A DNA stretch of 64,000 nucleotides from Candidatus Saccharimonadota bacterium (GTDB lineage: Bacteria; Patescibacteriota; Saccharimonadia; Saccharimonadales; Saccharimonadaceae), in assembly GCA_030537075.1 (NCBI GenBank), contig JAUNOS010000003.1, positions 62,001 to 126,000 of the forward strand, read 5' to 3'. Below are positions 45,854 through 48,167 of the stretch, one piece after another (positions within the stretch are counted from its first letter, which is position 1; every line of letters starts with the position of its first letter). The notes under the pieces are model-generated. The model did no database searches and had not been told where the DNA came from. It worked only from the letters and a program-made list of their open reading frames with translations. The translations under genes were made by a program, and so were the position numbers.

Positions 45854-46726
45854 TTATCGTAATGTCCAGTTGTTGGCACCAAGCGGCTTGATGAGGCCAT
45901 TCATCTCTAGCATCGTGAGGGCTGTGGCGAAGTCGGCCGGACTGAGACCCGATTGTTGCTGGAGCTGCTCGCCATCACGTACGCCATTGCTCAGAAGGTC
46001 AAGGATAGCCTGTTCGGCAGGGTTGTCAGTGAGTGGGAGGCTGGCTTGGTCGGGGTTGGTGGCTGCGTGGCGTGGAGCGATAACCGAGAGAACATCAGCA
46101 GCTTCGGTGACAATGAGGGCGCCTTGTTTGAGGAGTGAGTTGCAACCCGCGGATAAGGGGCTGGTGATATTACCTGGAACGACAAAGACGTCTCTGCCCT
46201 GCGCCAGAGCGTGCGCGGCGGTATTGAGGGTGCCACTGCGCTCAGCAGCTTCGGTGATGATAACGGCGTCAGCCAGACCAGATACGAGTCGGTTACGCTC
46301 CAGAAAGCTCCAGCGATTGACGACCTTTCCCTCCCCTTGCGCCCATTCAGAAATGATGGCGCCACCCTGCTGGATGATGCGCTCGGCGAGGCGGCGATTG
46401 GCCTGGGGTGAAATCTCTGGGAGCGGGTCTGCTACCACGCCGATGACCGTACCACCAGCTTCGAGTGCCGCCGTCTGTGCGATGCCATCGATGCCAAGCG
46501 CCAGTCCACTGACGATGACGCAGCCCGCCCGGGCGAGGTCACGCGCCAAGAGCTCAGTGACCTCGCGACCATAGGGTGAAGGCTTGCGTGAGCCGACGAT
46601 GGCGACCACCGGACGCGGGTCGGCTGGCAGATTTCCCATAAAACACAAGCTTTTCGGGGCCTTTGCAATAGTACTCAGTCTCTGGGTAAAATGGTGCTCA
46701 TCTGGACGAATTCTATTGATTTCCAT
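45854..46726 (-). CDS. dprA: DNA-processing protein DprA
   Basis: 290 aa from ATG 46726, chosen because a -10-like TGCAAT (minus, 46739-46734) lies 7 nt upstream and a -35 TTGACA 16 bp before it. The Rossmann-like DprA core shows VAIVGSRKPSPYG, IVSGLALGIDGIAQTAAL, GGAIISEWAQGE, FLERNRLVSGLADAVIITEA and a C-terminal winged-helix domain. DprA loads RecA on incoming ssDNA during natural transformation; uptake of host DNA is important for CPR epibionts lacking nucleotide synthesis. Confidence 0.93.
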   Translation of the reverse strand: MEINRIRPDEHHFTQRLSTIAKAPKSLCFMGNLPADPRPVVAIVGSRKPSPYGREVTELLARDLARAGCVIVSGLALGIDGIAQTAALEAGGTVIGVVADPLPEISPQANRRLAERIIQQGGAIISEWAQGEGKVVNRWSFLERNRLVSGLADAVIITEAAERSGTLNTAAHALAQGRDVFVVPGNITSPLSAGCNSLLKQGALIVTEAADVLSVIAPRHAATNPDQASLPLTDNPAEQAILDLLSNGVRDGEQLQQQSGLSPADFATALTMLEMNGLIKPLGANNWTLR

Positions 46727-46733
46727 GACTTTT

Positions 46734-46775
46734 ATTGCAAAAAGTGTTGACACTTTGTCAAATGTTTGCTATAAT
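46734..46775. promoter_or_regulatory. Divergent promoters dprA / ncRNA sharing a palindromic -35
   Basis: Rightward: TTGACA (46747-46752), 17 bp, TGCTATAAT (hexamer 46770-46775), close to consensus throughout. Leftward: TTGACA on the minus strand (46761-46756), 16 bp, TGCAAT. The two -35 boxes form the perfect palindrome TTGACACTTTGTCAA except for its centre (46747-46761). Confidence 0.7.
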
Positions 46776-46781
46776 GGCACT

Positions 46782-47094
46782 TGATTGGTTGAGCAGGACT
46801 CAATCAAAAGCACCTTATACCCCCTATTCTAACTATATGTTAGGTTGCGCGCAATGGCATTAAGTATTCTTACCCTCCACTTTTTGCATTTTCACGTTAC
46901 GCGCATACTAACCCCTTTAACTACCATTTCAAAGGGCTTCTCTGTTTGCACAGTGAGTACGATCAGTATTGACATGTGTCAGGCGCCGGTCTTTTGGAGT
47001 TTTGACCGCAGTCGCTTCGCTGATGAGAGACGTTCGGGTGGGTTGAAGGGTAACAAGGCGCCAGGTGATGCCCACCCTTACCTGGCGCCTTTTT
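46782..47094 (+). ncRNA. Orphan structured RNA of about 310 nt
   Basis: A near-consensus promoter faces a stretch without any convincing ORF that ends in a strong intrinsic terminator. Within it are a 5' hairpin (TTGATTGGTTGAG / CTCAATCAA, about 46781-46808), a CGGTC/GACCG hairpin (46986-47008) and a potential H-type pseudoknot: GGGTGGG (47036-47042) can pair with CCCACCC (47071-47077) inside the terminator loop. It lacks the tmRNA tag and 3' CCA, RNase P conserved blocks and the SRP GGAAG domain. It is therefore none of the housekeeping RNAs I can recognise. Confidence 0.65.
47055..47094 (+). terminator. Strong terminator of the orphan RNA
   Basis: Perfect 12-bp stem (47055-47066 with 47080-47091), 13-nt loop containing CCCACCC, then T-run. 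The loop is complementary to an upstream GGGTGGG, so the hairpin may be part of a pseudoknot. Confidence 0.92.
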
Positions 47095-47165
47095 AGTGGG
47101 GTCGTGACTTGGACGGACCATGGGCAATCTTGACTTTTTAGTACATAAGTAGTATAATTGATATT

Positions 47166-48167
47166 ATGAGTAAGGCGACATCGCAGCGACATACCGTCAA
47201 AATAACACACCTTCGGGCGTTAGCGGCTGCTCGCCCCCTTCTGTTTCGGGCGGATTATCAGGTGGTGGTGTCGCAGGTTGATCGTGAGGTGCGGCGAATG
47301 GCGCAGCGACTTGACAAGAGTAAATTGCCAGCTGCCAATTTCTTTGCGGCGTGGCGACGTGAGCTGCGGCCGCGACTGGAGAAGATACAGGCTGAGACAA
47401 GTGCGACAAAGTTGCAACAAGCCTTCAAGCGAGAGATGCTCGCAGGTCCACGTGAGGCGGAAGCGTTAGTGCGGCTAGTAGTGCCGCTGCGCGAAGAGGA
47501 AGAACGGCGGGCGTTTTGCCGGGCGCAGTTCTCGCCGACTAAGGAGAAGCGGCTGTATCGGGCGGTGCGACAATTTACCGGCCAGTCTGTTGAGGACTGT
47601 GAAGCTGCTATCGCGGCCTATGAGCGCTATGAGTGCTATCGTGCGGTGGCGGCAGACCTTGGTGTGACGGTCGTGGATCCGCATGCAGGAAGGCTACGGC
47701 GCTGGCGGCAGCGCGGAGTGGCGAAGCGCCAGGTGCGGCGCCTCCGTTCGTCAGTGGCGCGTCGACAGCGACAGATTATGAGTGAGATGCAGCGCCTGGA
47801 GGGGCTGCATGACGGATTGGCGGCGCGGATTTTTGCTTTGAGGATTGATTATGTCGCTATCTTGGCGGCGCGTCAGGAGTATGAGAAGGGCTTGAGTCGG
47901 CTCAGCAAGAAGGCGGCGGAAAGTCCAGCCAAGCGTCTGGCGGTGTTCGACAAGAAGACGGAGGCGCTCAGGGCGGACTACCTCGACAGGGTGCCAGGCG
48001 TGGCGAGTCTCAGTGACGCGCAGCTCGCGGCAAAGGAGATAAATGAGGTGCTGCTCGCAGTCTTTGACTTGGACGCAACCAGCCGCAATGCGCTGATGCG
48101 GGTCTTCCAGGAGTATCGGACACTGGTGCGTGAGCGCGAGGCGCTAGAAGATCAAGTGGCGCTATAG
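47166..48167 (+). CDS. Basic, helical hypothetical protein
   Basis: 333 aa, rich in Arg (for example RRLRSSVARRQRQ) and Lys, predicted almost entirely helical with coiled-coil stretches (about 190-330), no TM. The strong net positive charge suggests nucleic-acid binding, and it lies directly after the orphan RNA gene. TATAAT (47153-47158) is 7 nt before the ATG, with TTGACT 18 bp upstream. Family not recognised. The 3' end overlaps the convergent regulator by 6 bp. Confidence 0.6.
   Translation: MSKATSQRHTVKITHLRALAAARPLLFRADYQVVVSQVDREVRRMAQRLDKSKLPAANFFAAWRRELRPRLEKIQAETSATKLQQAFKREMLAGPREAEALVRLVVPLREEEERRAFCRAQFSPTKEKRLYRAVRQFTGQSVEDCEAAIAAYERYECYRAVAADLGVTVVDPHAGRLRRWRQRGVAKRQVRRLRSSVARRQRQIMSEMQRLEGLHDGLAARIFALRIDYVAILAARQEYEKGLSRLSKKAAESPAKRLAVFDKKTEALRADYLDRVPGVASLSDAQLAAKEINEVLLAVFDLDATSRNALMRVFQEYRTLVREREALEDQVAL

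Follow-up and report, generated by a model that had tools for sequence, protein, structure and literature searches.

What is encoded in a segment of about 310 nt that follows a consensus promoter, ends in a strong terminator and matches no known gene? We addressed this question for positions 46782-47094 of a 64,000-nt stretch of contig JAUNOS010000003.1 from a Candidatus Saccharimonadota bacterium; this whole stretch is called the window below. Judged from its sequence and that of its homologues, the segment is an independently transcribed gene for a non-coding RNA (ncRNA), and the product is very probably an independent RNA acting in trans. Its signals are the following.

46747-46775, plus strand: promoter, with TTGACA at 46747-46752, a 17-nt spacer and TGC-TATAAT ending at 46775; 12/12 match to the consensus
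46782-47094, plus strand: ncRNA gene, recognized by promoter, terminator and order-wide homologues, and spanning approximately +1 (predicted start site) to the U-tract of the terminator

Promoter, terminator and setting of the gene

The promoter is a perfect TTGACA-17-TGCTATAAT; the nearly complete genome (810,516 bases) has nine such sites, the stretches scanned comprising all but about 2 kb. A first-pass annotation, made from the sequence of the window, had named it the best plus-strand promoter there, and it is in fact the only perfect plus-strand site in the window. Counts out of 72 refer, here and below, to homologues with all landmarks present. The element TTGACn-16/17-TGn-TAnnnT lies 5' of the RNA in 71 of these 72, and the remaining homologue is cut by a contig end. 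The terminator stem, described by the same annotation as a perfect 12-bp helix, is exactly that (AAGGCGCCAGGT at 47055-47066 paired with ACCTGGCGCCTT at 47080-47091); TTTTT then follows to 47094, and a T-run is found 3' of the hairpin in 69/72 homologues.

The setting of the gene is conserved on one side only. The relevant neighbor is:

45854-46726, minus strand: dprA, with its ATG read at 46726-46724; the divergent, conserved head-to-head neighbor of the ncRNA gene

About 20 bp separate the start of dprA from the -35 box of the ncRNA promoter. The locus had been described as lying downstream of dprA, which needs correction: dprA is on the minus strand, so the ncRNA gene is upstream of it and divergent from it. 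Among about 88 loci, dprA is upstream and on the opposite strand in 74 and is never placed otherwise, and topA occupies the corresponding upstream place in 42. The genes downstream differ among homologous loci. In the window, the next gene is an open reading frame (ORF) of 333 aa from 47166, and a TTGACT-17-TATAAT element within 47130-47166 ends 7 bases before its ATG. Because the RNA has its own promoter and terminator, stands head-to-head with dprA and is followed by varying genes, the one at 47166 having a promoter-like element of its own, we regard it as an independent gene and not as a leader. It is present in a single copy, since a search of its own genome with the 361-bp region found one place.

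The -35 box is spanned by a palindrome, TTGACACTTTGTCAA (46747-46761), which has one further copy in the genome. A palindrome of the form TTGAC-N5-GTCAA occurs in the -35 region of 35/89 homologues and offers a -35 element in both directions; it may constitute a back-to-back promoter that serves dprA and the ncRNA together.

The first-pass annotation had also reported no ORF over about 310 nt. Taken literally this does not hold, as mechanical ORFs overlap the RNA (for example, a TTG-initiated frame at 46845-47096), but stop codons close each frame of the 5' domain in 65-70 of 72 homologues. A protein-coding gene was rejected because the reading frames are closed in this way.

Fold of the RNA and its unpaired C-rich segments

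The calculated fold energy of the RNA is -107.9 kcal/mol, versus -84.9 kcal/mol for dinucleotide shuffles (z -4.33; none of 100 shuffles was as good). The elements are listed below in order along the transcript.

46785-46807, plus strand: P1, 5' hairpin (UUGGUUGAG / CUCAAUCAA) from the minimum-free-energy fold, with arms that co-vary in homologues
46812-46833, plus strand: J1, near-invariant single strand (ACCUUAUACCCCCUAUUCUAAC), with columns invariant or above 90% in 49 aligned sequences
46839-46843, plus strand: GUUAG, strand common to P2 (partner 46829-46833) and P3a (partner 46908-46912)
46846-46905, plus strand: P3 stem (46846-46856 paired with 46895-46905), which closes the P4/L4 hairpin
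46862-46882, plus strand: P4 (AAGU/ACUU) and its loop L4, with near-invariant ACCCUCC at 46872-46878
46913-46921, plus strand: 5' strand of P5 (CCCUUUAAC), paired with 47042-47050
46922-47035, plus strand: middle domain of variable length, here of the large type (GGCGC..GGAGUUUU..GUCGCUUCGCUG)
47036-47042, plus strand: GGGUGGG, possible pseudoknot strand for the terminator loop; its last G opens the 3' strand of P5
47042-47050, plus strand: 3' strand of P5 (GUUGAAGGG), paired with 46913-46921
47055-47094, plus strand: P7, terminator hairpin with covarying stem, invariant loop GAUG-CCCACCC-UU and U-tract

Comparison of the homologues shows a fold consisting of P1, P3a/P3/P4, the long-range helix P5, which encloses a domain that varies, the terminator P7 and, in compact forms, P6. 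Four of these helices (P3a, P3, P5 and P7) are established by compensatory changes at the sequence level. All 10 pairs of P3 are double-changed, with 95% of cells paired and far lower values for shuffles and slid registers. P5 is paired 9/9 in 71/72 homologues, with double changes in 4 pairs (for example, GCCTTTATC/GATGAAGGC, CCCTTTCAC/GTGAAAGGG and CCCTTTAAG/CTTGAAGGG), and the P7 stem shows 137 double-changed cells and 97.7% pairing versus at most 77.6% when shuffled. In P3a, where GUUAG pairs with CUAAY at 46908, all five pairs are kept except in a few sequences that are divergent or truncated, and the compensatory changes are of four kinds (GTTGG/CCAAT, GTTGC/GCAAT, ATTGC/GCAAT and GTTAC/GTAAT). 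The domain enclosed by P5 falls into 38 large, 29 compact and 5 intermediate versions. In compact RNAs it contains P6 (GCG-GACC / GGUC-A-CGC), which is replaced by AGUU/AACU and AACG/CGUU in some. Unlike versions occur within one family, the compact being about 45 nt and the large about 100 nt or more, as if the domain had been swapped or reduced several times.

The GUUAG strand has two conserved and mutually exclusive partners, since the CUAAC of J1 (46829-46833) is able to pair with it as P2. Because compensation preserves P3a but several divergent homologues have lost P2, P3a is likely the final state and P2 likely an early state during transcription. The RNA thus probably refolds while it is being transcribed.

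What is most constant in the RNA is not paired. Three C-rich single-stranded segments are near-invariant in the alignments, namely CCUUAUACCCCC in J1, ACCCUCC in L4 and GCCCACCC in L7, the terminator loop. The CCCUCC of L4 is invariant in the 49 aligned sequences, and the CCCACCC of L7 is unchanged in 72/72 homologues.

An H-type pseudoknot between this loop and an upstream G-rich strand had been proposed. GGGTGGG (47036-47042) and CCCACCC (47071-47077) are located exactly as described, and their pairing in the window copy is perfect, so a pseudoknot is possible there. Comparison of homologues leaves it unproven. The pairing is 7/7 in 29/38 large and 19/29 compact RNAs, but the strand equivalent to GGGUGGG carries at least one mismatch in 23/72 homologues while the loop stays CCCACCC, and it competes with an extension of P5. 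There is no covariation for the pseudoknot because the terminator loop never varies. The invariance of L7 where its G-rich partner mutates shows that the loop is kept for a reason other than, or beyond, the pseudoknot. Two further candidates were rejected. A partner swap, in which a GUGGG of the middle domain is present where the canonical site has been lost (11/12), was dropped as evidence because the GUGGG of compact RNAs consists of a variable bulge plus paired P6 bases. The other was a local hairpin that would compete for GGGU; it occurred in 25/29 compact RNAs, versus 23.7 expected by shuffling.

Distribution and comparison with known RNA classes

When the 361-bp region was compared with 150 relatives, matches were obtained in 141/151 genomes at E<=1, and these were strong in most of the family. 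A covariance model (R1) built on the 5' domain matched 205/393 genomes of the class and 24/380 of the phylum, and among the matches listed all belong to the order Saccharimonadales. These counts are lower bounds because some genomes of the same family score nothing despite having diverged copies at the same locus, such as L056 (G019), L071 (G069) and L079 (G009). An exact two-block pattern was found in at least 118 stretches of the named genome collection; among the 80 matches listed, all are from Candidatus Saccharibacteria/Saccharimonadia or are titled only "bacterium" or Patescibacteria, oral taxa 348, 350 and 352 being among them. In the best overall explanation, set out below, the RNA would be part of the basic gene complement of Saccharimonadales.

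The suggestion of a lineage-specific ncRNA has therefore stood up well: the RNA lacks an Rfam match, it is conserved across the order and syntenic with dprA, and alignment of the dprA-adjacent region in relatives revealed conserved, covarying helices. With Rfam 15 at gathering scores, no family was found at the locus, and the only match in the window was a tRNA. A permissive E-value mode applied to the window and 13 relatives gave only chance matches at the locus. The earlier exclusion of transfer-messenger RNA (tmRNA), RNase P RNA, signal recognition particle (SRP) RNA and riboswitches was also borne out. RNase P RNA and tmRNA have their own matches elsewhere (C1:248259-248601, 248 bits, and C1:251386-251779, 88.5 bits, respectively), and no downstream gene is conserved that a riboswitch or other cis-acting leader could serve.

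A replacement for SRP RNA was taken seriously in an order without a recognisable SRP RNA, and was then dropped. The SRP RNA models RF00169 and RF01854 had no match in the window or in its own genome, and RF00169 had none in 100 genomes of the order. The domain IV loop signature CAGG..GGAA..AGCAG, to which Ffh binds, is not present at the ncRNA locus, and elsewhere it gave two one-mismatch matches versus three for a reversed control. The Ffh M domain (PF02978) was not found in the genome, which is 99.75% complete, whereas 14/14 controls were positive; among 808 ORFs there was no GTPase motif of the Ffh/FtsY type. SRP RNA is excluded because the order shows none and the genome is also without Ffh. 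In this genome the SRP pathway seems to be absent and not disguised.

We found no published description of the RNA in the literature searched, most subscription papers and bioRxiv preprints being outside its coverage. The absence of this RNA from Rfam means that genome annotation overlooks it across a whole order.

Proposed function and competing explanations

Beyond these findings we infer constitutive expression, a role in trans and a partner that barely changes. As the best overall explanation, which we consider evenly poised between right and wrong, the stand-alone gene would yield a constitutively transcribed structured RNA whose scaffold presents its C-rich segments as a binding surface to a partner nearly constant throughout the order. 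GUUAG would pair first with the upstream CUAAC (P2) and later with the downstream CUAAY (P3a). The leading guess, which we offer tentatively, is that the C-rich segments pair with G-rich RNA, in the first place mRNA ribosome-binding sites or a site in rRNA, and that this pairing would set translation in a cell with few other regulators.

The alpha-r14 or "cuckoo" small RNAs (sRNAs) of alpha-proteobacteria, such as NfeR1, provide the closest working analogy for such a mechanism. They carry, in the unpaired regions of hairpins whose stems vary in sequence, an ultraconserved motif complementary to the Shine-Dalgarno (SD) sequence, and they silence mRNAs at the ribosome-binding site independently of Hfq (PMC10746234). 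Conserved C-rich unpaired motifs, several hairpins and variable stems are shared with these RNAs, which are likewise trans-encoded (PMC10746234). In contrast to them, the C-rich segments of the present RNA differ among themselves (CCCCC, CCCUCC and CCCACCC), and the alpha-r14 motif CCUCCUCCC is not found in its loops, which read CCCCC, ACCCUCC and CCCACCC. The present RNA is also larger, has a long-range helix and belongs to another phylum, with no sequence relation by Rfam. The C/U-rich terminator-hairpin loop of Helicobacter pylori RepG, a short and narrowly distributed RNA, is its binding element. The present RNA also has a C-rich loop in its terminator hairpin; unlike that of RepG, it does not vary within an order and forms part of a larger fold.

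Several observations limit the case for a pairing mechanism. The loops matched translation starts no better than composition-matched shuffles did, although an anti-SD-like control failed as well, so that the test was without power and speaks neither for nor against pairing with ribosome-binding sites; L7 showed no preference whatever for start regions. At about 300 nt and with a conserved core, the RNA is also rather big to be a simple antisense sRNA, and invariance of single strands suits a protein-binding RNA or a ribozyme equally well.

The same observations bear on the strongest competing explanation, a protein-bound structural or housekeeping ribonucleoprotein (RNP) that works without pairing and whose invariant strands are protein contacts instead of antisense seeds. 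This is a serious possibility, if a less than probable one, and ranks only slightly behind pairing. RaiA RNA, OLE and Y RNA are large structured bacterial ncRNAs whose function is an RNP or is not known. The present RNA is similar in its complex covarying fold, its near-invariant unpaired blocks and its wide occurrence within one lineage, here an entire order, but differs in that none of the Rfam families matches it by covariance model. The lack of special complementarity between its loops and translation starts also agrees with an RNP. On the other hand, no partner is known, and no protein gene travels with the RNA except dprA-topA, which is shared through the divergent orientation. That the RNA acts in some way other than pairing or an RNP appears unlikely. 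Still less do we expect a housekeeping RNA confined to Saccharibacteria, probably essential, with a mechanism unlike that of known bacterial ncRNAs; such an RNA might, for example, refold so that its one G-rich strand and its three C-rich loops exchange partners, and might globally set translation in host-attached versus free cells. The switching of Saccharibacteria, which are parasites of other bacteria, between these two states has been stated to be completely unknown, and translation control is suspected (PMC11665869).

The remaining explanations are far weaker. An RNA polymerase-binding RNA of the 6S type would fit the strong consensus promoter, and its role could be vacant, since RF00013 has no match in the genome. 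However, the RNA has several hairpins and the long-range P5 rather than a single rod with a central bubble, is about 310 nt long, carries strongly conserved sequence motifs and gave no 6S match in the permissive scans, which makes this very improbable. A self-cleaving or other catalytic RNA, suggested by the complex fold and the invariant unpaired core, is more improbable still, as there is no match to an Rfam ribozyme and nothing else suggests catalysis. A riboswitch-like leader or attenuator of the downstream gene could account for the terminal terminator and the alternative pairings, but is already largely refuted by the varying downstream gene, the separate promoter-like element just ahead of the ATG at 47166 and the retention of the terminator in homologues. 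We give equally little credence to a divergent DNA control region for dprA-topA with the RNA as a by-product: despite the head-to-head arrangement wherever dprA is found and the shared, palindromic -35 that part of the family has, conservation continues for 300 bp into the transcript in the form of covarying RNA helices and stops at the terminator.

Saccharibacteria are culturable and transformable, and transposon-insertion sequencing (Tn-seq) screens are feasible (PMC10633639). The function of the RNA is therefore testable at once, in part from existing RNA-seq and Tn-seq data.

Translation starts in this genome appear to be of two kinds, SD-led and apparently leaderless. A GGAGG between -18 and -4 precedes 100/807 genes, versus 8 at control positions, a count that speaks for the best overall explanation given above. 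TATAAT lies at -18 to -4 in 95 of 807 ORF starts, mostly near -12. The start of the gene at 47166 is of the leaderless type.
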